A DNA stretch of 64,000 bases from Nocardiopsis listeri NBRC 13360 (GTDB lineage: Bacteria; Actinomycetota; Actinomycetes; Streptosporangiales; Streptosporangiaceae): assembly GCF_001570765.1 (NCBI RefSeq), contig NZ_BCSH01000023.1, forward strand, positions 1 to 64,000. The letters run 5' to 3'. Within the stretch, counting starts at the first letter, position 1, and each line of letters begins with the position of its first letter. Both the position numbers and the translations under genes were made by a program. Below are positions 3,561 through 17,756 of the stretch, piece by piece. The notes below the pieces were generated by a model, which ran no database searches, was not told the origin of the DNA, and worked only from the letters and a program-made list of their open reading frames with translations.

Positions 3561-3787
3561 AGGGATTCCTACTGGTTCAAGGCGTGAGGGAGCAACCAGG
3601 ACGTTACCGTACGTAGCAGCCACGATTCAGGGCGAAACGGTGTTTACTGCTGTCCGGAAACGGCCATGGCTCCGCGAGGTGCGCCCCCACCTGCACCCAC
3701 CTTGTACTGGGGAGCACACCAGGAGCACACAAGCCCCGAAAACGCCGTGAGGACCTCTTTCGAGATCCTCGCTTACCCCTTCTGACC
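3561..3787. other. Gene-free stretch before the island, with arm-like repeat
   Basis: No gene is supported here. The segment 3711-3733 contains two GGAGCACAC-type units. They resemble the GAGCACGAAC-GGAGCACGCAAG motif found just inside both islands (3961-3982 and 10448-10469). It may be chromosomal attachment-flanking DNA or the remnant of an older insertion at the same tRNA. Confidence 0.4.
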
Positions 3788-3797
3788 TGGGGTTTTG

Positions 3798-3842
3798 TGG
3801 CGCACCCGGCAGGATTCGAACCTGCGACCGTCGGATTAGAAG
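3798..3842 (-). repeat. att copy 1: 3' fragment of tRNA-Arg, outer end of island A
   Basis: These 45 bases are identical to the 3' part of the tRNA-Arg gene (17681-17725), from the encoded CCA to the anticodon loop. The ten bases on their left (TGGGGTTTTG) are also shared, so the direct repeat is at least 55 bp. The 5' half of the tRNA is absent, so this is not a functional tRNA. It marks the distal end of island A. Confidence 0.9.
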
Positions 3843-4136
3843 TTCCATGGTCACGTACCGTCACGTGTCACTTCATGCCGTTGTGTCCCACACCATCCGC
3901 ATCCGGGTGCCGTCCTGTGCCACGATGGGCCGTCTGATGTTGTTCCGGTCCAAAGCTGCGGAGCACGAACGGAGCACGCAAGCCTGAAAGAGCGTCCGAT
4001 GGCACCTCGCGAAATCCTCACGAGGAAAAGGCCGTACCCGAGATCGACCTCGAAGCCCCGCAGCCACACCGATCCACTGGCGAGGCATTCTTCACGGGCG
4101 GCACGAGAGACGGCCGGGTACGGCCAAGGAGATCCT
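3843..4136. other. Island A left-end region with putative arm sites
   Basis: No gene is seen. Positions 3945-4002 closely match 10432-10489 at the equivalent place in island B, including GAGCACGAACGGAGCACGCA and GCGTCCGATGG. Conserved short repeats next to an att core are what integrase arm-binding sites look like. Confidence 0.55.
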
Positions 4137-5652: not shown

Positions 5653-5687
5653 GGAAGCAACCATAGGTCTTGGTCGATAATGAGTGC

Positions 5688-6584
5688 ATGACTGCGACGA
5701 CACTCGGACACATCGACCACCTGCTCCCCGCCGCCGACGCCGAGACCTACGCCGCCTGGTTCGCCTGCCTGGCCGAACCCATGCGCGTTCGCCTGCTGCA
5801 CGCCATCGCCACCACTCCCCAAGCGGTCAGTGTGGGGGAGTTGGCCCAGATGGTGGATGTTCGCCAGCCCACGGTCTCCCACCACCTGCGCAAACTCGCC
5901 GACGTGGGGTTCGTGACCCTCACCAAGGTGGGTACCTCCACCAAAGTCGCGGTCAACCCGGCCTGCTGCACCGGCCTGCCGCATGCCGCGGACGCGGTGA
6001 TGGGTGTACTCAACGCCCGTCCCTGCTGCCCCACCGACCTGCCCGGCGACGTCACCACCCGAACCATGGTCGAAGCCGACCTGGAACGGGTACGCGACAT
6101 CTACGCCCAAGGCATCGCCACCGGTGAAGCGACCTTCGAGACCCGAGTCCCTGATCTGGAAGAACTGAAGAACAAGTGGCTCACGGGACACCGATGGGTG
6201 GCCGAGACCGATGATCGCGTCGTCGGCTGGGCCGCTGCTTCACCGGTCTCCACCCGCGAGGTCTATTCCGGGGTGGCTGAAACCTCGGTGTACGTGGCTG
6301 AGGACGCGCGTGGCCGTGGTGTGGGCAAAACCTTGCTGTACCGGCAGGTCACCGAGGCCGACACCGCTGGTCTGTGGATGTTGCAGACCTCGATCTTCCC
6401 TGAGAACCGCGCCTCCTTGTCCCTGCATCATCAGGCCGGCTTTCGCACGGTGGGCGTACGCGAACGCATCGCCCGCCACCACGGCACCTGGCGCGACATC
6501 GTGCTGTTGGAGAGGCGCCGCCCGGACGAGGAGATCGCCCCCGACGCGGTTGCTCACAAGGGCTCCGGCGACCTCAACCCCTGA
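5688..6584 (+). CDS. ArsR repressor fused to ArsN1/PPT-type acetyltransferase
   Basis: This 298-residue protein joins two domains. Residues 1-115 are an ArsR winged helix (DVRQPTVSHHLRKLADVGFV recognition helix) with Cys pairs at 93-94 and 113-114. Residues 123-277 are a GNAT acetyltransferase of the phosphinothricin/ArsN1 type: EADLERVRDIYAQGIATGEATF at the start, acetyl-CoA loop RGRGVG at 208-213, then HHQAGFRTVGVRERIARHHG. Known members of that group acetylate phosphinothricin, methionine sulfoximine or arsinothricin. A single polypeptide would sense trivalent arsenic and detoxify an arsenic antibiotic, but the substrate is inferred. I use ATG 5688 rather than TTG 5670. No good ribosome-binding site is visible, so the message may be leaderless. 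Confidence 0.85.
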   Translation: MTATTLGHIDHLLPAADAETYAAWFACLAEPMRVRLLHAIATTPQAVSVGELAQMVDVRQPTVSHHLRKLADVGFVTLTKVGTSTKVAVNPACCTGLPHAADAVMGVLNARPCCPTDLPGDVTTRTMVEADLERVRDIYAQGIATGEATFETRVPDLEELKNKWLTGHRWVAETDDRVVGWAAASPVSTREVYSGVAETSVYVAEDARGRGVGKTLLYRQVTEADTAGLWMLQTSIFPENRASLSLHHQAGFRTVGVRERIARHHGTWRDIVLLERRRPDEEIAPDAVAHKGSGDLNP

Positions 6585-6912: not shown

Positions 6913-7332
6913 TCAGGTGCGGGGGCGAGCGGTCACTCCCAGCTCCTTCAGGAGCCCGCGAACACGCTGCTCGATGTCATCCCGGATGGGACGTACGGCT
7001 TCCACGCCCTGCCCGGCCGGGTCGGGCAGGTCCCAGTCCAGGTAACGCTTGCCAGGAAAAACCGGGCACACGTCGCCGCAACCCATGGTGATGCACACGT
7101 CGGAGACCTCGACCGCTTCGGTGGTGAGGACCTTGGGGCGCTGGTCGGTGAGGTCGATACCCACCTCGTTCATGGCCTCGATCACCGCGGGGTTGATGCT
7201 TTGGGCCGGGGCCGATCCCGCCGAACGCACCAGTACCCGCTCACCGGCCAGGTGCCGTAGCCAGGCAGCGGCCATCTGGGAGCGGCCCGCGTTGTGCACG
7301 CACACGAAGAGTACGGATGGTGTCTCGGTCAT
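6913..7332 (-). CDS. arsC: Arsenate reductase ArsC (LMW-phosphatase fold)
   Basis: This 139-residue enzyme reduces arsenate to arsenite in the cytoplasm. It has the low-molecular-weight phosphatase loop CVHNAGRS (CX5R, Cys near residue 13), the SAGSAP segment, and a GCGDVCPVFPGKRYLDWDLPDP block with two more cysteines. Whether electrons come from thioredoxin or mycothiol/mycoredoxin cannot be told by eye. I use ATG 7332, with GGTGGAGG six bases upstream; an in-frame GTG lies at 7344. It is divergent from arsR-acr3, with 96 bases between starts. Two further ArsC domains lie in island B, at 10588-10998 and in the chimera at 11012-11818. Confidence 0.92.
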   Translation of the reverse strand: MTETPSVLFVCVHNAGRSQMAAAWLRHLAGERVLVRSAGSAPAQSINPAVIEAMNEVGIDLTDQRPKVLTTEAVEVSDVCITMGCGDVCPVFPGKRYLDWDLPDPAGQGVEAVRPIRDDIEQRVRGLLKELGVTARPRT

Positions 7333-7418
7333 GGAGGCCTCCACCTTCTATCTCGGGCCCGGTTCGATGGTCGGTTCAGGCCGGAGGGGAATTCGCGTCG
7401 GCATCGAATGCTATGTCA

Positions 7419-7438
7419 ATATCAGGGCATGCTGATAT
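7419..7438. promoter_or_regulatory. Palindromic operator over the arsR start codon
   Basis: An inverted repeat, ATATCAG-GGCATG-CTGATAT, has seven-base arms, and the arsR start codon (7429) lies inside it. A related TATCA/TGATA pattern continues just downstream. Such placement would let ArsR block its own transcription or translation initiation, and arsC on the other strand could be co-regulated. Confidence 0.55.
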
Positions 7439-7740
7439 CAGTCGACACTGATTTTATGAGGGTGCTGGCGGACCCTTTGCGCATGCGCATCGTCTCCTTG
7501 CTCGCTCACGAGACCCTGTGCACCACACACCTGATCGAGGAGACCGGCGCAGGCCAGACCAACCTGTCCAACCACCTGCGCGTCCTGCGCGAGGCGGGCC
7601 TGGTCGCGACCGAACCCTGTGGGCGCTACACCTACTACCGGCTCCTGCCCGAAGCCCTGGAAACCTTCGCGGGATCGATGGCCGAACTGGCCCGCACCGC
7701 CCGCTCCCATGCCGCCGCAGACAACAGGAGACCCTGCTGA
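7429..7740 (+). CDS. arsR: ArsR-family arsenic-responsive repressor
   Basis: This 103-residue winged-helix protein is a typical ArsR/SmtB repressor: MRVLADPLRMRIVSLLAHE, then the recognition region TNLSNHLRVLREAGLV and the wing GRYTYYRLLPEAL. Cysteines in ETLCTTHL and EPCGRY may form the As(III) site. The ATG at 7429 lies within a palindrome and has no Shine-Dalgarno sequence, which suggests a leaderless transcript; ATG 7456 is less likely because it would remove helix 1. The stop overlaps the acr3 start (TGATG), so the two genes are translationally coupled. It is a different lineage from the ArsR part of the fusion at 5688, with no Cys pairs. Confidence 0.9.
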   Translation: MLISVDTDFMRVLADPLRMRIVSLLAHETLCTTHLIEETGAGQTNLSNHLRVLREAGLVATEPCGRYTYYRLLPEALETFAGSMAELARTARSHAAADNRRPC

Positions 7741-8816
7741 TGGCCTCTGCCGACACCGCACCGACCACCGCCTCGGTCGCCGCGCGAATGTCCACCCTGG
7801 ATCGCTTCCTGGCCGTGTGGATCCTGCTCGCCATGGCCGTGGGTCTAGGACTGGGGCGCCTGGTCCCAGGCATCGATCAGGCTCTGGCCGCGATGGAGAT
7901 CGGCGGTATCGCCCTGCCCATCGCCCTAGGCCTGCTGGTGATGATGTATCCGGTCCTGGCCAAGGTCCGCTACGACCGCCTGGACACCGTCACCGGTGAC
8001 CGATCCCTGCTCATCTCCTCCCTGGTGGTGAACTGGGTCATCGGCCCGGCGGTGATGTTCGCACTGGCCTGGATCTTCCTGGCCGACCTCCCCGAATACC
8101 GCACCGGACTCATCATCGTCGGCCTGGCCCGATGCATCGCGATGGTCATCATCTGGAACGATCTGGCCTGTGGCAACCGCGAGGCCGCCGCCGTCCTGGT
8201 CGCCCTCAACTCCCTCTTCCAGGTCCTGGCCTTCGGCGTGCTGGGCTGGTTCTACCTGGATCTGCTCCCCGGATGGCTGGGGCTGGACACCGACGGCTTG
8301 GACGTCTCGCCCTGGCTGATCGCGCTCAACGTCGTCATCTTCCTCGGCATCCCGTTGGCCGCGGGGTTCCTGACCCGTTTCCTGGGCGAGCGTCGGATGG
8401 GCCGGGAACGCTATGAAGCGCACTTCCTGCCCAAGATCGGCCCATGGGCGCTCTACGGGCTGCTGTTCACCATCGTGCTGCTCTTCGCCCTCCAAGGCGG
8501 CACCATCACCAGCAGGCCCCTGGACGTGGCGCGCATCGCGACCCCCTTGCTGATCTACTTCGTGCTCATGTGGTTCGGCACCTTCGCCTTCGCCAAGATG
8601 ATCGGCATGTCCTATGACCGCACCACCACCCTGGCGTTCACGGCAGCGGGCAACAACTTCGAACTCGCCATCGCGGTGGCCATCGCCACCTTCGGTGTGG
8701 CCTCCGGTCAGGCCCTGGCAGGGGTGGTCGGGCCGCTGATCGAGGTTCCCGTCCTCGTCGCTTTGGTCTATGTGTCGCTGGCCTGGCGCAAACGGTTCAC
8801 CGCAGACCGAAGGTAA
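7740..8816 (+). CDS. acr3: Acr3-type arsenite efflux permease
   Basis: This 358-residue membrane protein exports arsenite. About ten hydrophobic segments are visible, starting at FLAVWILLAMAVGLGLG. The conserved Acr3 features are present: the YPVLAKVRYD loop, the GLARCIAMVIIWNDLACGNREAA block with the cysteine needed in this family, and the AAGNNFELAIAVAIATFG motif. Length and topology fit a full-length Acr3 of the bile/arsenite/riboflavin transporter superfamily. It starts at ATG 7740, overlapping the arsR stop, and ends 168 bases before the integrase gene. It needs no ATPase. The arsR-acr3 pair with divergent arsC gives a complete minimal arsenate-resistance unit. Confidence 0.95.
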   Translation: MASADTAPTTASVAARMSTLDRFLAVWILLAMAVGLGLGRLVPGIDQALAAMEIGGIALPIALGLLVMMYPVLAKVRYDRLDTVTGDRSLLISSLVVNWVIGPAVMFALAWIFLADLPEYRTGLIIVGLARCIAMVIIWNDLACGNREAAAVLVALNSLFQVLAFGVLGWFYLDLLPGWLGLDTDGLDVSPWLIALNVVIFLGIPLAAGFLTRFLGERRMGRERYEAHFLPKIGPWALYGLLFTIVLLFALQGGTITSRPLDVARIATPLLIYFVLMWFGTFAFAKMIGMSYDRTTTLAFTAAGNNFELAIAVAIATFGVASGQALAGVVGPLIEVPVLVALVYVSLAWRKRFTADRR

Positions 8817-8984
8817 GGCGAGACTCGCTCACCTGGCGTGGGTGTCGTGTCTCGTGCGAGGGAGGCCCCGGCAAACACTGGGCGCCTTCCTCACATCCGG
8901 GTAAGGGGGACTGGACAGGAGAAGATGACGCTCTGAAGCCGGATTCTGGTCCTTGGGCTGATACTGGTTTCAGGGGTGTTGGTC

Positions 8985-10343
8985 ATGTCCGGATCGGGTT
9001 CGGTGTACAAGCGGTGCGGGTGCCGAGGAACCAAGAGCGCGAAGGCCAGAGAGGGGCGCTGCTCTGGACTGGCAAGGCGCGGTCATGGGAGTTGGTACTT
9101 CACCCTGGACTTGGAACACACACCGGGCGGTAGGCGGCGGGTGCGCCGGGGCGGGTTCGTTTCCCGGGAAGCCGCGCGTGAAGGGCTGCGCCAGGCCCGG
9201 GAACTGGAGGGGGTCGATGCCGACCCGGCGGTGTTGACGCTGTCTGCGTGGTTGGAGCGGTGGCTGGCCACCCGTACCCGGTTGCGGCCTTTGACCCGCA
9301 CCAGTTACGCCGAGCACATCCACCGCTACCTCACACCCCATCTGGGTGCGGTGCCGTTGGAGGAGCTGACCCCCACCCTGGTGCAGGAGGCCTTCGAACA
9401 GATCCGTCACCGCACCACACCGGCAGGAGGACAAGTGTCTGCGGCCACGGTGCAGCGGATCCGTGCCACGTTGCGGGCGGCGTTGAACACCGCCGTGCGC
9501 GAAGGGTTGTTGGCCTCTAACCCCGCCCAAGGGCTGCGGTTGGAACCTGGGGCGGCGGAGCGGCCGGTGGTGTGGACCGAGCAGGCCGTGGCCGAATGGG
9601 CCCACGGTGGTGTTCGGCCGGCGGTGGCGGTATGGACGGTGGAGCAGACCCGCCACTTCCTGCAGCATGTGGGTGAGCATCGGTTGTACGCGCTGTTCCA
9701 CCTGGCGGTGATGACCGGGCTGCGGCGCGGTGAGGTGGTGGGCCTGCGCTGGCCTGAGGTTGATCTTGTGGGCGGCACGGTGCGGGTGGTGCGCCAACTC
9801 CAGTGTCACCGGGGTGGGTTGGTGGAGTTGGCGCCCAAGAGCGCGGCGAGTCGCCGTGTGGTGGCGTTGGACCACACCACTTTGGGGGTGTTGCGACGTC
9901 ACCAGTGGCATCAGCAGAACGAGGCCGAAACCCAGGGGCGGGTGTGGGACCCGCGCGGGTGGGTGTTCACGGCTGTGCGGGGTGGACCGATGGCTCCTGA
10001 TCGTCTGTCCCGCCTGTTTCGCACACTCAATTCTGAGAGTGGGTTGCCGCCGGTGCGGTTGCATGATCTGCGGCACGGGGCAGCGACGTTGGCGTTGGCG
10101 GCGGGGGTGGAGTTGAAGGTGGTCCAGGCGATGCTGGGGCACGCGAGCATCGTGTTGACCGCGGACACCTATTCCAGCGTGTTGCCTCAGGTGGCGCGGG
10201 AGGCGGCGGAGCGGACCGCGTGGCTGGTGCTACGTGATGCGGGTAGAACCCATCGGAGGGGGAGTGTGCGCAGGGTGAACAAGGGGCTGGTCCCACCTCG
10301 GTCCCACCCTGGTCCCATCAGTAGAAGGGACCGTTTCAGGTGA
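8985..10343 (+). CDS. Tyrosine recombinase, island A integrase
   Basis: This 452-residue phage-type integrase has an N-terminal arm-binding region (MSGSGSVYKRCGCRG; AP2-like strands around WYFTLDLEHTPGGRRRVRRGGF), a core-binding SAM-like domain (residues about 85-185) and a C-terminal catalytic domain. The catalytic residues are visible: Arg in TGLRRGE, Lys in APKSAASRR, HDLRHG, GHASI and the nucleophile Tyr in TADTYSSV. An unusual GC-rich N terminus carries CGCRG and Cys residues that may bind zinc. I start it at ATG 8985; GTG 8976 is possible. The stop is 31 bases from the att copy at 10375, the normal arrangement for a tRNA-targeting element. It looks intact and could still mobilise island A. 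Confidence 0.93.
   Translation: MSGSGSVYKRCGCRGTKSAKAREGRCSGLARRGHGSWYFTLDLEHTPGGRRRVRRGGFVSREAAREGLRQARELEGVDADPAVLTLSAWLERWLATRTRLRPLTRTSYAEHIHRYLTPHLGAVPLEELTPTLVQEAFEQIRHRTTPAGGQVSAATVQRIRATLRAALNTAVREGLLASNPAQGLRLEPGAAERPVVWTEQAVAEWAHGGVRPAVAVWTVEQTRHFLQHVGEHRLYALFHLAVMTGLRRGEVVGLRWPEVDLVGGTVRVVRQLQCHRGGLVELAPKSAASRRVVALDHTTLGVLRRHQWHQQNEAETQGRVWDPRGWVFTAVRGGPMAPDRLSRLFRTLNSESGLPPVRLHDLRHGAATLALAAGVELKVVQAMLGHASIVLTADTYSSVLPQVAREAAERTAWLVLRDAGRTHRRGSVRRVNKGLVPPRSHPGPISRRDRFR
10289..10318 (+). repeat. Triple GGTCCCA repeat at the integrase 3' end
   Basis: Three GGTCCCA units lie about 11 bases apart inside the last codons of the integrase gene. The same array, with one change, occurs at 17595-17623 beside the tRNA. 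Regular spacing of one helical turn next to an att core suggests integrase arm sites embedded in coding sequence. Confidence 0.5.
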
Positions 10344-10374
10344 GGTGAAGCGACCCCTCTGAACTGGGGTTTTG

Positions 10375-10419
10375 TGGCGCACCCGGCAGGATTCGAACCT
10401 GCGACCGTCGGATTAGAAG
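10375..10419 (-). repeat. att copy 2: tRNA-Arg 3' fragment at the junction of islands A and B
   Basis: These 45 bases are identical to tRNA-Arg positions 17681-17725, and the preceding TGGGGTTTTG is shared too. The sequence then continues GCCCGGTG rather than the tRNA's GTCCGGTG and diverges within a few bases. It is the boundary between the two tandem islands and lies 31 bases after the integrase stop. Confidence 0.9.
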
Positions 10420-10431
10420 CCCGGTGTTGCC

Positions 10432-10489
10432 CCGGTCCAAAACTGCAGAGCACGAACGGAGCACGCAAGCAGGGGATGCGTCCGATGGT
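10432..10489. repeat. Putative arm-site block at the start of island B
   Basis: This block matches 3945-4002 of island A (CCGGTCCAAA, GAGCACGAACGGAGCACGCA, GCGTCCGATGG). The shared block beside each att copy shows that the two islands use related integration machinery. The remaining bases up to the arsC stop at 10588 hold no gene that I can see. Confidence 0.5.
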
Positions 10490-10587
10490 GCAGGGCGAGT
10501 TTTTCGGATTCTCGTACAAGGTGTCCTGCCTTGTGGGTGCGGGGTAGGTGGCCCTGGATGTTGCTGTTGCGCCTGTGGTGGAAACGG

Positions 10588-10998
10588 TTAGTGGGGAAGT
10601 AACTTGCCGATGAGTTCTTCGACGCGCTTGCGGATGTCGTCTCGGATAGGGCGGACGGCGTCCACACCCTGCCCGGCGGGGTCGGGGAGTTCCCAGTCGA
10701 GGTAGCGCTTGCCAGGGAAGATGGGGCAGGTGTCGCCGCAGCCCATCGTCACGCACACGTCGGAGGCCTCGACAGAGTCGGCGGTGAGGACCTTGGGGTT
10801 CTGGTCGGTGATGTCGATACTGACCTCGGCCATGGCCTCGACGACCGCGGGGTTGAGCGTGTCGGCGGGGGCTGATCCTGCCGAGCGGACCTCGGTCCGT
10901 CCCTCGGACAGGTGGCGCAGCCAGGCAGCGGTCATTTGGGAGCGTCCGGCGTTGTGCACGCAGACGAACAGGACGGACGGCTGGTCGGTACCGGTCAT
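10588..10998 (-). CDS. arsC: Arsenate reductase ArsC, island B copy
   Basis: This 136-residue protein is a close paralogue of the island A ArsC. It has CVHNAGRSQ, SAGSAPADTLNPAVVEAM, and the GCGDTCPIFPGKRYLDWELPDPAGQG block with both resolving-cysteine candidates. The start ATG is at 10998. It lies 13 bases downstream of the tape-measure::ArsC chimera on the same strand, so both are likely on one transcript whose promoter lies in phage-derived DNA. All catalytic residues that I can check are present. No arsenite exporter is found in island B, so it would depend on Acr3 of island A or on another pump. Confidence 0.92.
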   Translation of the reverse strand: MTGTDQPSVLFVCVHNAGRSQMTAAWLRHLSEGRTEVRSAGSAPADTLNPAVVEAMAEVSIDITDQNPKVLTADSVEASDVCVTMGCGDTCPIFPGKRYLDWELPDPAGQGVDAVRPIRDDIRKRVEELIGKLLPH

Positions 10999-11011
10999 GG
11001 CGGGTGTTCCC

Positions 11012-11818
11012 CTACTTCGGGTCGACGGTGGTGGGCACGGATGTAGGTGCTGCGATCAGGGACAACAGGTCGCTGACGTGGGTGTCGATCACGTCTCGGA
11101 TACGTCGCAGCTCGGAGGGTGAGGCGCCGTGGGGGTCGGGTGTGGGCCAGTCCAGGTAGCGACGCCCGGGGACCACGGGGCAGGCGTCACCGCAGCCCAG
11201 AGTGATGACGAAGTCGGCCGCCTCGACGACCTCTTCGGTCAGCGGTTTGGGGTAGGCCCGGCCCAGGTCCACGCCGACCTCGGCCAGGATCTCGGCCAGG
11301 TGGGGTTCGAGTTCAGAGGCGGGGTCGGTACCCGCGGAAGAAACCGTGATCGGCTCGGTGGCCCGGTGAGTGAGCAGGGCGTCGGCGATCTGAGAGCGTC
11401 CGGAGTTGTGGCCGCACACGAACAGCACGCGCACGGGCCGGGTAGCGTGCGTCTGCTGCGCGGCGATCAGGGCGCCCAGGCGTTCGGCGAGCACATTCAG
11501 GTGAGTGGTCACCGTGGCGGTGGCGGTGAGCGCGTCGCCCATGCCGGACAGGCTGGCGGCGAGCGTGGAGACCCCTGTGCCGGCGACGAGGGCGGCTGCA
11601 GGTAAGGCGAGAACGGCGCCTGCGGCGGGTCCGGCTGCGGCGGTGAGGGAGGTCAACGCGCTGACGGCGGTTGCGATCGCCGTCATCTTGCCGATGTCGC
11701 CGACCCGGTCGAACCTCTTGATCAGGTTGTCGAGTCCACGGGCGGCCCGTTTGACGCCCTTGTCGAACCTCTTCGAGTCGAGACCCAGCCTGACGAGCAG
11801 GGATGCAACGGTCGCCAT
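11012..11818 (-). CDS. Chimera: phage tape-measure N terminus fused to ArsC
   Basis: This 268-residue frame has two unrelated parts. Residues 1 to about 105 look like the start of a siphophage tape-measure protein: MATVASLLVRLGLDSKRFDKGV, a basic helix, then long Ala/Gly-rich hydrophobic stretches ending TLAASLSGMGDAL. Residues from about 130 onward are a complete arsenate reductase domain with the CX5R loop CGHNSGRS, SAGTDPASELEP and the GCGDACPVVPGRRYLDWPTPDP block. The junction falls around HLNVLAERLGALIAAQQTHATR. Phage tail genes occur upstream on the same strand in the right order, which supports a recombination event inside the tape-measure gene. The two hydrophobic stretches might anchor the protein in the membrane. 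Activity is untested. Confidence 0.8.
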   Translation of the reverse strand: MATVASLLVRLGLDSKRFDKGVKRAARGLDNLIKRFDRVGDIGKMTAIATAVSALTSLTAAAGPAAGAVLALPAAALVAGTGVSTLAASLSGMGDALTATATVTTHLNVLAERLGALIAAQQTHATRPVRVLFVCGHNSGRSQIADALLTHRATEPITVSSAGTDPASELEPHLAEILAEVGVDLGRAYPKPLTEEVVEAADFVITLGCGDACPVVPGRRYLDWPTPDPHGASPSELRRIRDVIDTHVSDLLSLIAAPTSVPTTVDPK

Positions 11819-11941
11819 GCGGGATCACCTCCCGCACGGTCTATTCAGGGTCTCGCTATAAGATTTTATTGATCAGCTGAACCATGTGGTTTTAGCAGAA
11901 ATCAAGGCCAGTATTAATCTGTCGAAGAAGGGGGTGTTTTG

Positions 11942-12919
11942 CTACGCTTCTGGGAGATCGTAGTAAGCGACGGGCCAGTCTACGCGGTCGGATTCTGACG
12001 CGTGCGCTATATGAGCAAGCAGCATGGCTGTAGGGTGATGAAGCGCAAGATCCAAAGACGCCTCTGTCTGTTCGTAGAATGCACTCAGGTCATATTCACG
12101 GTGGTGAATTCCCAGTAGTCTGCAGATGTGTTCGAATTCTTTATTGCGAAAGAATTCGTTTTGCATCTGGTCATGAAGTCGCGATGCGATGTCGAGCATT
12201 GCCTTGCCTTTTTCGGTTAGGCGATAGATGCTCGGCCATCCGGCGAAGTCCCATTCGTGGGAATTGAACCCGCCTGCGCGGTCAACCATGCCCGATAGTT
12301 CAAGGCGAAGGGCTTCCTCTTTGAGGATGGCCACGCTGAAGTCCGTATCCTTTTTCCATCGCGTGTAGTTGCCTACGGGATTGCTTGCCAGGTAAGCCAG
12401 CATCCAGATCGGCATTCCGAATCTACGAGACAAGGTGACATTCAAAACATCTTCAGAATTGAGGCCTCCGAGTGCTACATGCATCAAGAGGTCTCGTCTT
12501 ATCTCCTCGTCCAGGATTCCCTTGACTTGGAGTCGAGCGACTTCATTGTCTGCGTCGAAATCCTCGGGAATCCAGAAAACTCGTAAGCGAGCCAAGCGAT
12601 CACGCATTGGCGAGTTCCTGTAGTCGGACACGACTTCAGAAAGCCTGGCTCTAGTCTTCATTGAGTCTCTGGCGACATAGACGTTCGCCGAAGAATCTGG
12701 GTCGGAAAGAAGAGTTCTTAGGTCCTTGTCTATTCCGTCTCGATCGTGCTTCCAGATGGTCTGTCCAGATATCGCCTTTGACCAAACCCTGGTTATGTCA
12801 CATGCGAAGTCAAACTTCTTGCGTCCGGCTTCGCAATACTTAAAGAGCTGGGATTTTGATGCATTGGAAATCGCATCAAGGGCGGCCCATGTAAGGAACT
12901 CATGTTCTGGGGATGGCAA
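11942..12919 (-). CDS. Unknown 325-residue protein, possible phage cargo gene
   Basis: I do not recognise this protein. It is 325 residues, soluble, with no signal peptide. It has an N-terminal helical region (EFLTWAALDAISNASKSQLFKYCEAGRKKF) and a central acidic/basic domain. Around residues 210-260 there is a possible winged-helix segment (SIYRLTEKGKAMLDIASRLHDQ). It sits where the region between tail-assembly chaperone and tape measure would normally be tight, and its base composition is clearly more AT-rich than its neighbours, with many rare A/T-ending codons. That suggests a later insertion or moron-type cargo. A defence or regulatory role is conceivable but unproven. The 122 bases downstream, before the chimera start, hold nothing recognisable. 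Confidence 0.75.
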   Translation of the reverse strand: MPSPEHEFLTWAALDAISNASKSQLFKYCEAGRKKFDFACDITRVWSKAISGQTIWKHDRDGIDKDLRTLLSDPDSSANVYVARDSMKTRARLSEVVSDYRNSPMRDRLARLRVFWIPEDFDADNEVARLQVKGILDEEIRRDLLMHVALGGLNSEDVLNVTLSRRFGMPIWMLAYLASNPVGNYTRWKKDTDFSVAILKEEALRLELSGMVDRAGGFNSHEWDFAGWPSIYRLTEKGKAMLDIASRLHDQMQNEFFRNKEFEHICRLLGIHHREYDLSAFYEQTEASLDLALHHPTAMLLAHIAHASESDRVDWPVAYYDLPEA

Positions 12920-12990
12920 TGCAGTCTCCGTAAGGCGCTGGGAGCCTCACCATACAGACCGCTACCGACAGTTGCCCGAGAGTCATCCAC

Positions 12991-13692
12991 TTAGGCGATA
13001 TGTCCATTTTCAGTACCCCCCATGGCTGCGTTGGCTTCCCGGATCGCCGCCCACATCTGTTCCTCGGACTGGCAGTCGTCCCAGGTGGGCAGCAATTTCT
13101 CGGGGTCGATGGGCTTCGTGCCCTTGCGCCGGTTGACGTTGTAGACGGCTGCGGCGATGATCGCGGACTGAATGTCTCCCCGGCGTGCGCCGAGGGGTCC
13201 GGCGCGGCGCTCGTAGACGGCCCACTCGGTCAGCTCACGCGAGCTGATCCGGGCGAGCAGTTCGGCGACGGCCATGTTGAGGTGGCCGGCCAAGCGGAAA
13301 TAGAACTCCCGCTCGGGCCGGCGCCTCATTCCCCCCAAGAGCTCGTCGACGTCCTCGTCGGTCAGCCCGGAAAGCCTCTGACACTTCTCGAACACCCTGT
13401 TCAAGACTGCAGCGTTCTTGCGACCCAGGGCGGCGACGTCCGAGTTGCTGAACACAGCGTTGCCCTTGGCGTCGACGATGCACTTCGCGACGAACTTGGC
13501 TCTCACGTTGTCGAGCTTGAGACGCTTGGTGTTGCCAGCGATCTCGGTCTCGAACCGGTCCCTCTCGGTTCCGGCCAGCGCCCTGATCCGCACAGTGCCG
13601 CCCCACTCGGGAACGGGGACGGTGTCATATGCGAGGTCGTCGGCGCCGAGGATGGCGTCGCGGCCGAGGAACTCGGCGGTCTGTGTGGTCAT
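12991..13692 (-). CDS. Phage tail assembly chaperone (G/T-like), remnant
   Basis: This 233-residue protein resembles the fused form of siphophage tail assembly chaperones. The first half (GGTVRIRALAGTERDRFE, LSGLTDEDVDELLGG) is G-like, and the second half (EREFYFRLAGHLNMAVAELLARISSRELTEWAVYERRAGPLGARRGDIQSAIIAA) is the T-like part seen in phage minor tail proteins. In lambda-type phages the two parts are joined by a programmed frameshift. Here one continuous frame encodes both, with MRRRPEREF as the likely start of the T part. The start ATG is at 13692. It is in order between the major tail protein remnant and the tape-measure N terminus. It has no function without the rest of the phage. Confidence 0.75.
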   Translation of the reverse strand: MTTQTAEFLGRDAILGADDLAYDTVPVPEWGGTVRIRALAGTERDRFETEIAGNTKRLKLDNVRAKFVAKCIVDAKGNAVFSNSDVAALGRKNAAVLNRVFEKCQRLSGLTDEDVDELLGGMRRRPEREFYFRLAGHLNMAVAELLARISSRELTEWAVYERRAGPLGARRGDIQSAIIAAAVYNVNRRKGTKPIDPEKLLPTWDDCQSEEQMWAAIREANAAMGGTENGHIA

Positions 13693-13711
13693 CGGTCAGT
13701 CGTCCTTTCGG

Positions 13712-14036
13712 TCAGGGCGCAGGAGTCGGGGCGGGGGTGATGGTGGGTTCGCCGGAGACCTGCCACGTCAGAGTTGCGGCCATCTGCCCGTCGATGGGCA
13801 TCTCGCGCTCGAACCCGGTCAGCAGAGCCTCGAAAGCCCAGAGCTCGCCGGCCGGACTCTCCATCTCGTAGGCGACCGGGTTCGGGTTCTTGAAGTCGCC
13901 ATAGATGACGTCGTGCTTGTCGGGGTCGTAGTGGCACTCGACGGACACCTCGCCGCCGTCGACCAACCCGCCGATGAACTCGCGGAAGTTCGACGGGGTG
14001 TCTCGCGCCGAGTGTGTTGGAGGCTTGAGCGTGTGC
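13712..14036 (-). pseudogene. Phage major tail protein, C-terminal fragment
   Basis: The frame reads THSARDTPSNFREFIGGLVDGGEVSVE, then an acidic-aromatic middle and ends SGEPTITPAPTPAP at a stop at 13712. The FREFIGGL..GGEV pattern is typical of siphophage major tail tube proteins. The N-terminal part is missing: homology stops near 14036, where the transposase wreck begins. An internal ATG-like start cannot restore the missing region, so I call it a truncated remnant. Confidence 0.65.
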
Positions 14037-14051
14037 CGGGATCGCCTCCCG

Positions 14052-14758
14052 TCACTCGAGGTACCGGAACACGGTCATCTGTAAGCGGACCAGTGGCCGG
14101 TAGTATCCCCGGTCTGCAGGGTGGTGAGGCCGGTGGTACCACTGGGCGCGCAGGCCGAGGTTGGTGTTCAGGACCGGCAAGACGCTGGTGACGAGCTTGA
14201 GTTCGTGTACCTGCCTCAGTACAGGAAAGCCCGGCCAGTCCAGCACGTCGTCCACACTCGGTGACGAGCGGGATGTGGGGGCGGTGGGTAGTCCTGGCCT
14301 TGTCCCGGTCTTGGACAGACGCGGCCATCACGCACACCAACAGCCACAACCCCAGGGCGTCGGCGACGATGAATCTCTTGCGGCCGTTGACCTTCTTGCA
14401 CGCGGCATAGCTCCGGAGCCCCTGGCCTATGGTGTTGGCGCCCTTCGTGCTCTGGGAGTCGATGATCCCGCCGAGAGCTCGCCCCCACGTCCGTGCGCGG
14501 TGCGCAGTCAGCGGCGCAAAGCGGACATGATCTGCTCGATGACCTTGGTGTCCTCAGTGGGAGAAGCACCAGTACACGCCTCTGCCAGGGCGGGAAGTCC
14601 ACGGGCAGGTGCTGCCAGGAGCAGCCGGTACGCACCACGTACAAGATTGCGTCCACCACGCTGCGGCGGGGGTGCTTCTCGGGACGGCCGCCGGTGTCGG
14701 CCGGTGGGAGCAGGGCTCGATCAGGGCCCACCAGAGGGAGGGGTAGACCGGTCGTCAT
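14052..14758 (-). pseudogene. IS5-like transposase, multiply frameshifted
   Basis: The N-terminal segment (PLVGPDRALLPP, GGRPEKHPRRSVVDAILYVVRTGCSW, HLPVDFPPWQ) is a typical IS5-family DUF4096 start. Downstream pieces (GLWLLVCVMAASVQDRD) are in a second frame. A third frame, up to a stop at 14052 (YYRPLVRLQMTVFRYLE), looks different and may not be transposase. At least two frameshifts are needed, so it is inactive. Terminal repeats were not identified. Its left end coincides with the truncation of the major tail gene, so insertion or a subsequent deletion probably removed the tail N terminus. Confidence 0.65.
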
Positions 14759-14837: not shown

Positions 14838-16159
14838 CTAATACTGCAACGACAGGTTGTTGCCTGTGCGTCTGCGGTAGTGACTCATGCGGGCACGCTG
14901 CTGGGATCGGCGTCTGAACAACGACCACGCCAGCACGTGCTCGACCGGATGAGAGATCCGTGCCGCCACCCGGTTGAACAAACGGCGGACCTCGTTGACA
15001 CTCACGGGGACCAGACACACACCCAAGGCGTGTTCTGCCCCCCCTTTTGAACGGCCTGGCGGAGCCGGGCCAGGAACGCCAGTGCGGCCATGGACAAGGT
15101 GATGTGTCGGTACCACGCCCGATAACCACCCACTTGGTAGTGGTCCAGCCCGGTCTCGTTCTTCGCGGCCTGGAAGCATTCCTCGACCGCCCACCGGGAT
15201 GCGGCCACCCGCACCAATTCCGCCAGCGTCGTGTGTTCTGCTGCGAAGCAGATGTAGTAAGCGATATCAGCGGGATCGGTGAGGCTCCGACGAGCCAACA
15301 GCCAATGCCCCTTGCCCGGCTCACGCCAAGGGCGGATCTCGGCTCGGGCCCAGTCATACACGCGTGGCCCGTGCGCCCCATCACCGCAGCTCAGCCGCTC
15401 CCACGCCAGTCCGGGAAGGCCGGCGATCACCTGGTGCGCTCGGGGCATGCGCAGGTCCATCGCCACGACCGTCTGGGACTTGGGCACCGCGACCACATGA
15501 TGGATACCGTGCTGCTCCATCCACATCCGCAACCGGCTCACCTGCCCGTAGGCCTCGTCCGCGGTGACCCATCCGAAAGGGATCTGGGCTTGGACTGCTC
15601 TTTGCAGCATGACCAGGCCGAGTTCGTTCTTGGTGGCGAAGGCGACCTCATCACCGATACCGGCGGCCCGGCACCGGTCGCGGTCCTGGGTCCAGGCCTT
15701 GGGCAGATACAGCTCCCGGTCGATCAACGCCCGCCTCTGGGGTGCGGCGTAGGCCAAGAACACACCGAGCTGGCAGTTCTCGATCCGCCCCGCGGTACCC
15801 GAGTACTGACGGGCCACCCCGGCCGACTTCGTGCCCTTTTTGAGGAATCCGGTGTCGTCCAGGATCAGCACCCCGTCGTGGGGGTCGCCCAGGGCCTCCA
15901 CCACCAAGGTGCGCACGTCATCGCGCAGACCGTCAGTGTCCCAGGCATAGAAGTTCAGCAGGCGCTGGAGGCGTTCGGGGCCCTGTTCGCCGCACATCTC
16001 GGCCAGGGTCCACCCGTTCTTGCGTTCCAGTTCGCTGAGCAGTCCACGCAGGTAGGAGGTGGCCTGGCGGCGGGATTCGACGCGGGGGAAGCGGTGCGCG
16101 AAGGAGGCGGTGAACTCGGCGAAGCACCGCGACCAGGTGTCAAGGTCAGTGATGGCCAC
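14838..16159 (-). CDS. IS701-family transposase, needs a -1 frameshift
   Basis: The first frame (ATG 16159 to 15002) encodes 385 residues of a DDE transposase of the IS701 family: SRCFAEFTASFAHRFPRVESRR, the VLILDDTGFLKKGTKSAGVARQYSGTAG block, WVTADEAYG and WAVEECFQAAKNETGLDHYQVGGYRAWYRHITL. The expected C terminus (EHALGVCLVPVSVNEVRRLF to SHYRRRTGNNLSLQY) is in the -1 frame. The shift point is a run at 15038-15048, which in coding sense reads A AAG GGG GGG, a possible slippery heptamer. The joined product is about 440 residues, normal for the family. Its stop codon TAG uses bases of the target duplication. It could be programmed frameshifting or a homopolymer indel. Confidence 0.8.
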
Positions 16160-16308: not shown

Positions 16309-17178
16309 GTGTCAAGCCGCACGAGAACTTTTGACCCCAGCTTCAAGTTCCCTGTAAAGCCTGCTCCCCCCAAACCGCTGGAAATTCCGGCTTCCTATCA
16401 AAATTTCAGTATCGGCTCACATCTCCTGCTCCTTGTTGTCTCATTGGTCTCTTTTGTGACAGCCGTGAACATGGCGGATGACAATCCTGGTCTCTTGTTC
16501 CTCCCTTTCCTGCCAATATTTATCGGGATCTATATCGTGGCTCGCATTGTGAGAGGGGGTTGGTACAACTACAGGCTTGGCTGGCACCGGCAGTCGCACG
16601 TTGAATTCGAAAAGGAGAGAAGCCGCTACCAAAGGAATCTGGAGAAGCTCTCCGGCGATGCCTTCGTAGACAGCCAGAACCTCGCCTCCGAGGATCGTTC
16701 CAGGCTGGGCCGGGTTCAGAAGTCCGTGGACTACATCCTGACAAGCGAAATCCACAGGTCCGGCCAGATCCTTGACACCACACGCAACCAAGTCGTCCTA
16801 CGAGACCTGGAGTGGAGAATAGCGAAAGATTCCCTTCGCGCGACTAGGGCCGAACAGAAACTGCGGGAGATCGGCCAACCGAAGAGTGACCACCCGCAGG
16901 CCAAGGACTCTTACGAGCAGGCCCAGAAAGCTCTAAAAACCCTCCGTAGCGAGATCGAGGAACGCGTTACCAAGATCGTCGAGTATGCCGATCAGGTGAG
17001 GTACGCAGGGAACCTCCTGGACGACGACCACCGGGTCGAGGACTACAACGACGTTTTCACCGAGCTCCAGATCGAAACCGCCGCCGGACTCCAGCAGGAC
17101 GCCTCCCTGAATTCACTACTCGAAGCCCAGAAGGTGGGCCTCGAAGTCGTGGAAATGCACACCAAGCTGGGCCTGTGA
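16309..17178 (+). CDS. Unknown two-helix membrane protein with coiled coil
   Basis: I cannot name this 289-residue protein. A basic, proline-rich N terminus (residues 1-30) precedes two hydrophobic segments, about residues 36-54 (HLLLLVVSLVSFVTAVNM) and 60-80 (GLLFLPFLPIFIGIYIVARI). The remaining 200 residues are charged, helical and coiled-coil-like (RYQRNLEKLSGDAF, YEQAQKALKTLRSEIEERVTKIVEYADQVRY). The GTG at 16309 is chosen because CAGGAGG lies five bases upstream. It is the last intact gene of island B before the integrase remnant, and its promoter region was disturbed by the IS701 insertion 94 bases upstream. Cargo of the island, possibly defence-related, but there is no catalytic motif. 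Confidence 0.7.
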   Translation: MSSRTRTFDPSFKFPVKPAPPKPLEIPASYQNFSIGSHLLLLVVSLVSFVTAVNMADDNPGLLFLPFLPIFIGIYIVARIVRGGWYNYRLGWHRQSHVEFEKERSRYQRNLEKLSGDAFVDSQNLASEDRSRLGRVQKSVDYILTSEIHRSGQILDTTRNQVVLRDLEWRIAKDSLRATRAEQKLREIGQPKSDHPQAKDSYEQAQKALKTLRSEIEERVTKIVEYADQVRYAGNLLDDDHRVEDYNDVFTELQIETAAGLQQDASLNSLLEAQKVGLEVVEMHTKLGL

Positions 17179-17292: not shown

Positions 17293-17580
17293 ATCACGCC
17301 CTGCCTGGTTTGCTCTAGTGGGTCTCGTATGAGGTTCTCCGCTGCCTGTTTTACGTGATCAGACTGGCAAGGTCACCATGAAGACCACCGCTCACTGGGG
17401 CTGAGAGGGCCCTGCGGTGTGTGCCAGGACGGCCTTCTGCCACTCACGGGAGTGGGCTGCTGCTAGGAGGTAAAGTCGCGTGGTGTCTCGTTGCTGACCG
17501 CACAGGAGACGACTGGCTGGTCTTCGTGACTGACGCCGCGGGGCGTCGACAGAGCCCGCCGACAAGGGTATTGGCGAGGC

Positions 17581-17649
17581 ATGAGGGAAGATCTGGCCCC
17601 ACTTCGGTCCCATCCTGGTCCCATCAGTAGAGAAGACCGTTTCAGGTGA
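17581..17649 (+). pseudogene. Residual 3' end of the island B integrase gene
   Basis: The last 22 codons before the TGA at 17647 read MREDLAPLRSHPGPISREDRFR, matching the end of the intact integrase (SHPGPISRRDRFR). The spacing to the att copy is nearly the same, 31 bases. The rest of the gene is missing, so island B has lost its own recombinase. The GGTCCCA-type repeats inside this stretch (17595-17623) are conserved. Confidence 0.75.
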
Positions 17650-17680
17650 GGCGAAGCGTCCCCTCTGAACTGGGGTTTTG

Positions 17681-17756
17681 TGGCGCACCCGGCAGGATTC
17701 GAACCTGCGACCGTCGGATTAGAAGTCCGGTGCTCTATCCACTGAGCTACGGGTGC
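17681..17756 (-). tRNA. tRNA-Arg(UCU), integration target
   Basis: This is a 76-base tRNA with CCA encoded. The acceptor stem GCACCCG pairs with CGGGTGC. The D-arm region is GCTCAGTGGATAGAGC. The anticodon stem CGGA/TCCG encloses the loop CTTCTAA, with anticodon TCT (reads AGA). The T arm is GCAGGTTCGAACCTGC. The intact gene lies at the right edge of the island array; its 3' 45 bases form the att core, so integration leaves the gene functional. Confidence 0.97.

Follow-up and report, generated by a model that had tools for sequence, protein, structure and literature searches.

The minus strand of the window (the whole analysed stretch of 64,000 nucleotides from Nocardiopsis listeri NBRC 13360, a soil actinomycete) contains an open reading frame (ORF) in which residues 1 to about 99 correspond to the start of a siphophage tape-measure protein (TMP) and the residues from about 100 onwards to an arsenate reductase (ArsC) (Table 1). 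Read along that strand, a truncated tail-tube gene and a tail-assembly chaperone gene are followed by a 1.17-kb stretch, the chimera, 13 bp and a second arsC (arsC2). An initial annotation of this DNA, which gave no strand for the chimera, had correctly recorded the 13-bp gap as well as the tail-chaperone and major-tail remnants upstream on the same strand. Nocardiopsis prophages have the same order of tail tube, chaperone and TMP, with the chaperone and TMP matches 15 bp apart in the phage relative described below, whereas here the 1.17-kb stretch is inserted upstream of the chimera. The low-GC ORF within this stretch has no Pfam, PHROG, PADLOC or NCBIfam match at the limits used and turned up in just one of 40 Nocardiopsis genomes, the one it comes from. 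The chaperone gene is one continuous frame, and related copies (L024, L025 and L046) differ from it by one base in a G run, at which the two overlapping frames of the L024 copy meet; frameshift-made G/GT chaperones occur in other siphophages.

The surroundings apparently consist of two tandem integrated elements at a tRNA-Arg gene, spanning 3.8–10.35 kb and 10.35–17.7 kb. We read the first as carrying an integrase, arsR, acr3, an arsC and further ars-type genes, and the second as decayed, with arsC2, the chimera and the phage remains. At 5670-6584 (plus strand), a regulator domain of ArsR type (57.0 bits, cut-off 55) and an N-acetyltransferase domain resembling ArsN1 share a single frame; the latter scores 145.3 bits against ArsN1 family A, below the cut-off of 170. 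The related prophage contig has no match to the integrase or att sequence of the locus and therefore does not show how the phage part reached this site.

Table 1 Features at the chimeric locus (positions are those of the window).
Feature	Position	Strand	Remarks
Chimeric ORF, 268 aa, ATG to TAG: TMP N terminus and ArsC	11012-11818	minus	
Phage part, residues 1-99 (tape-measure start)	11522-11818	minus	74% aa identity to TMP of G029; DNA match 11518-11839 to L024, 76%
arsC-derived part: end of PF21234 bundle and complete LMWPc catalytic domain	11015-11518	minus	
Junction zone, 22 bp	11512-11533	minus	GCGCTCACCGCCACCGCCACGG; from pairwise DNA alignments
Shine-Dalgarno-like sequence GGAGGTGATC	11823-11832	minus	identical in intact phage TMP gene
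Second arsC (arsC2), single domain	10588-10998	minus	13 bp downstream of chimera; same spacing in N. metallicus
Third arsC, single domain	6913-7344	minus	
arsR and acr3 (ArsR/SmtB regulator, ACR3 efflux transporter)	7294-8816	plus	
Insert stretch between chaperone and TMP	11840-13009		1.17 kb, ~51% GC in main part; no match in phage relative
Orphan ORF, 325 aa, low GC	11942-12919	minus	within the 1.17-kb stretch
Tail-assembly chaperone, one continuous frame	12991-13692	minus	phrog_344, 7.5e-27
Major tail (tube) protein remnant, 5' truncated	13712-13966	minus	phrog_158, 5.9e-9; starts inside gene
DDE transposase (PF13546)	15002-16159	minus	between phage remnant and tRNA-Arg
Tyrosine integrase, neighbouring element	8976-10343	plus	
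Integrase C-terminal remnant beside tRNA-Arg	17500-17646	plus	51% aa identity to end of integrase 8976-10343
Intact tRNA-Arg (TCT)	17681-17756	minus	
tRNA-Arg 3'-end copy (putative att site)	10354-10429	minus	adjoins integrase 8976-10343
Further tRNA-Arg 3'-end copies	3777-3852; 17660-17735		second copy within intact tRNA

An intact relative of the phage half, a 768-aa TMP (L024:6117-8423, minus strand), is encoded by another Nocardiopsis on a contig of 32,034 bases (genome G029, contig C28; also in IMG/VR as UViG_2839061667), and its first 99 residues are 74% identical to those of the chimera. This bears out the earlier proposal that the ORF opens as a tape-measure protein, but not its limit at residue 105, given that the boundary falls at about residue 96-101. 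The 768-aa protein matches PHROG tape-measure families (best E=2.9e-81). With TMPs annotated in named phages it shares 27-30% identity; in the 10 matches listed, the alignment always starts at its residue 93 or later, outside the fused piece. By itself the 99-aa piece matches PHROG TMP families weakly (best E=1.7e-4), and when the whole chimera is searched against named phages at E≤1e-5 the match is confined to the ArsC part in all 10 records; the TMP identification therefore rests on the intact relatives. With the Nocardiopsis prophage TMPs (G029 contig C28, G018 contig C796 and UViG_2554235034) the chimera has the first 99 residues and the ribosome-binding site in common, whereas the remaining ~670 residues, and with them the full-length tape and the C-terminal part, are missing (99 of 768 residues are present). 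Two distant TMP rows (L049 and L050) stood in the first TMP alignment (A1) and were dropped from the later one (A3). In a class-wide sample of 394 genomes, with at most 12 candidates scored per genome, the fused phage piece was matched at E≤1e-5 in five, its own and four others, in all four of which the match lies in an open frame of 770-1197 codons; the match in G018, from the genus search, lies in an open frame of 745 codons.

Residues 97-268 are 85% identical (best segment) to an ArsC of N. metallicus (L023:4524-5189, 221 aa), which has PF21234 at residues 18-71 (62.4 bits) and PF01451 at residues 84-205, a two-domain build that the initial annotation missed. In the chimera, PF01451 (LMWPc) is present at residues 131-252 (E=3.7e-17; 63.3 bits, cut-off 23.2), PF21234 is reduced to profile positions 30-48 (15.4 bits, below the cut-off of 27), and the three-helix bundle dimerization domain NF046112, which scores 37.5 bits in the native protein (cut-off 25), is not matched. 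More than half of this N-terminal bundle (PF21234/NF046112) has given way to the phage segment, and by DNA alignment a further 15 bp (5 aa) are deleted after the join, in what remains of it. The description of the ArsC as complete thus stands for the catalytic domain, which we judge to be whole from the retained domain and residues, but not for the enzyme, of whose 221 native residues about the first 45-48 are lost and 5 more after them. At 53-61 bits the chimera also stays below the NCBIfam arsenate-reductase equivalog and subfamily cut-offs (157.6-215), a failure that does not discriminate because the native N. metallicus ArsC and both neighbouring ArsCs fail too.

The predicted active site agrees with what had been reported for this ORF, namely a CX5R motif (C135 to R141) and further cysteines (C209 and C213); D228 is kept as well by alignment, and the ORF retains the cysteine trio of thioredoxin-coupled ArsC1' enzymes. 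The closest solved chain for the ArsC part is 3t38 ('Arsenate Reductase'), which we take to be C. glutamicum ArsC1'; it aligns with residues 18-205 of the native ArsC, and the match begins at 3t38 residue 44 for the chimera and at 18 for the native protein. Chimera residues C135, C209 and C213 correspond to C88, C162 and C166, which the accessible part of PMC6514093 gives as the catalytic cysteines of Cg_ArsC1', an enzyme of the actinobacterial two-domain, thioredoxin-coupled class; in the chimera, unlike that enzyme, over half of the bundle is gone and 99 residues of phage origin stand in its place. Among the 14 two-domain ArsCs aligned (13 relatives and N. metallicus, with rows L031 and L038-L044 cut from open frames by alignment and not at a start codon), 42 columns are invariant and 38 of these are kept. 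Of the other four, G27 and T33 belong to the part that was replaced, E60 to the 15-bp deletion, and A71 is changed to Ile; all four lie ahead of the catalytic domain. Single-domain arsenate reductases occur among the structure matches to the native ArsC, and those of the S. aureus pI258 family work without the bundle.

We carried out the check, suggested earlier, of whether residues 1-110 are a common N-terminal domain of ArsC proteins, and this is excluded: residues 1-99 are found in none of the 14 two-domain rows, the common domain of this ArsC type being PF21234 (shown for N. metallicus). Nine ArsC places (eight from the genus and family searches, and L027) match early in the query, at residues 47-69, and none of them matches residues 1-99 at E<0.05, the best value (0.064) falling elsewhere in that locus. 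Eight of the nine hold the ArsC catalytic domain, two also have a clear native-type N-terminal domain, and one (G006) matched neither half.

At the DNA level, the phage relative matches from 11839 to 11518, and the arsC block of N. metallicus matches from 11522 to 10590. The motif CCGCCAC at the junction occurs in the TMP relative as well as in the ArsC relative, and the chimera is 6 bp longer there than native arsC; hence the exact crossover base is ambiguous. As microhomology, these 7 nt would be weak evidence, being short for GC-rich DNA. Third codon positions have a GC of 0.85 on one side of the join and 0.84 on the other. Given two independent matches that meet in one 22-bp zone, and intact relatives of each half, the in-frame fusion of a phage TMP N terminus and an ArsC is, on the sequence evidence, real, and we infer a deletion as the simplest reading of its origin. 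Elsewhere in the genome, neither the TMP nor the 5' part of arsC has a match. A comparison of the genome with 20 kb of the related 32-kb prophage contig (best 40 of 510 candidates scored) showed the two stretches of the window and, on other contigs, at least nine matches that are weaker (67-85% over 48-291 bp). In N. metallicus, arsC2 likewise follows the ArsC gene after 13 bp, which suggests that the 3' side of the chimera is ancestral; there the arsC1-arsC2 pair is divergent from the arsR-acr3 block, a context that the chimera has lost.

As far as searched, the fusion appears to be single. Both halves stand in one frame in 1 of 40 genus genomes, its own, and in G029 and G018 the TMP start and an arsC lie at separate places. 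In a family sample of 298 genomes (8 first-look candidates scored per genome), 247 match at E≤1e-30 and, among the matches listed, only that of its own genome covers residues 1-268; the genus, family and class sets overlap, and the latter two are drawn samples. None of 10 matching phage records, none of 625 plasmid records and none of the viral contigs covers 80% of the chimera, in collections that, like the search for N. metallicus matches, may omit the genome itself. The literature searched, whose coverage leaves out most subscription papers, yielded no TMP-ArsC fusion. Recurring ArsC fusions are Acr3-ArsC (Mycobacterium/Mycolicibacterium) and ArsR-ArsC (several genera), in which an ArsC domain likewise sits within a longer polypeptide; in the cases described in the accessible part of PMC6514093 the partners are arsenic-related, whereas the partner here is a phage structural protein in a single case. 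A Pfam and NCBIfam profile search found no Acr3 or ArsR domain in the chimera.

The chimera is most likely a deletion scar with an ArsC domain that may still be working; it would lie in the remains of a prophage, next to tandem ars islands at tRNA-Arg. Within the array of tandem integrated elements, a deletion would have taken the rest of the prophage TMP gene, the DNA downstream and the 5' fifth of a same-strand arsC of ArsC1' type, so that TMP codons 1 to ~99 now run on in frame into arsC at about codon 49 (45-49). Transcription, if any, would come by readthrough from the upstream insert gene or from a local promoter, and the transcript would then be translated from the phage ribosome-binding site. 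The ArsC domain, which is probably still competent, would use thioredoxin to reduce arsenate, in the manner of single-domain ArsCs, and the phage N terminus would be a passenger. Taken as a whole, we consider this sequence of a deletion fusion, a working ArsC domain and a passenger segment reasonably probable. The three tRNA-Arg copies, the integrase and the integrase remnant count in its favour, as does the dN/dS of the ArsC part; against it we count the 5-aa deletion in the rest of the bundle, the short microhomology, the empty minus-strand promoter scan and two aspects of the substitution pattern given below.

The translation signals appear to be phage-derived, and by eye no similar sequence precedes any of the in-frame internal starts listed after the join. 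Since the start of arsC2 lies 13 bp beyond the chimera, translation of arsC2 may also be kept up by the fusion. Placement under phage late-gene control, as the initial annotation had it, is not supported in that form: the phage match stops at ~14010, the transposase lies beyond it, the genome has no other TMP, and what is kept of the phage signals is the ribosome-binding site. A sigma-70-type scan of the minus strand at 10400-14200 found no promoter-like site, and such scans miss many actinomycete promoters.

The main rival to a working enzyme, which we hold to be unlikely, is an inert relic: the deletion scar would be real, the ORF not usefully expressed or its protein misfolded, and the intact arsC2 and third arsC would serve instead. 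Such redundancy, the loss of a dimerization-type bundle, the further 5-aa deletion and the decayed surroundings with truncated tail-tube gene, transposase and insert all point that way, whereas the frame is open through the join and the catalytic residues and a strong-looking ribosome-binding site are kept. Selection was compared pairwise, so the values may mostly reflect time before the fusion: the ArsC part and N. metallicus give a dN/dS of 0.29 (dN 0.070, dS 0.237, 168 codons), above the 0.11 of the arsC2 pair (dN 0.039, dS 0.348, 136 codons), and the TMP part and L024 give 0.35 (dN 0.212, dS 0.616, 99 codons). The excess over arsC2 fits a relic. With nine outgroup rows (L043, L026, L028 and L020 left out) and residues 101-268 only, the 20 amino-acid differences between the ArsC part and N. 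metallicus divide into 8 derived in the chimera, 4 derived in N. metallicus and 8 without an assigned side. Eight against four (binomial p=0.39) neither shows nor excludes relaxed selection; two of the eight (I118 and D146) stand where all nine comparison rows have Ala, which again speaks for a relic.

Less probable still is a new working architecture, in which the TMP segment would insert into the membrane, lie on it or oligomerise, replacing the lost bundle and bringing ArsC near Acr3 efflux; we give it a low probability. Residues 1-44 are basic (11 K+R against 5 D+E), residues 45-92 are 48 hydrophobic residues without a charge, and the 19-aa hydropathy maximum of the chimera (up to 1.84) is close to that of the first 300 residues of the intact TMP (1.94) and above that of native ArsC (1.46). 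Hydrophobic helices are, however, ordinary in TMPs and need not be membrane-inserted, and the arrangement is seen in one genome only. A natural coupling of reductase and efflux exists in the ArsC-Acr3 fusions, as far as the accessible part of PMC6514093 describes them. Finally, an assembly artefact joining two unrelated pieces would suit a draft genome of 154 contigs, but we reject it as extremely improbable given that the join is in frame and both flanks lie within one tRNA-Arg element array, and a repeat is unlikely to have misled the assembler because a search of the genome turned up neither half a second time.

If the deletion fusion is correctly read, the locus offers a clean case of a metabolic enzyme that acquired a phage-derived N terminus and ribosome-binding site, seemingly via one deletion; relatives of each parent can be recognised by sequence within the genus. 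The chimera could show if ArsC1' activity depends on the bundle and if a soluble enzyme can tolerate or use a TMP segment. An inactive protein would make it a mere deletion scar; true co-option would make it a new ArsC architecture and a rare phage structural segment within a detoxification enzyme.

Elsewhere in the window, a weak PADLOC match to Cas12c at 16309-17178 (E=0.0018, 14.2 bits) was taken as chance. Positions 1-1850 contain two tandem, diverged copies of a ~1-kb segment (repeat families D1, D3 and D7), which carry similar small ORFs that look lipoprotein-like by eye.
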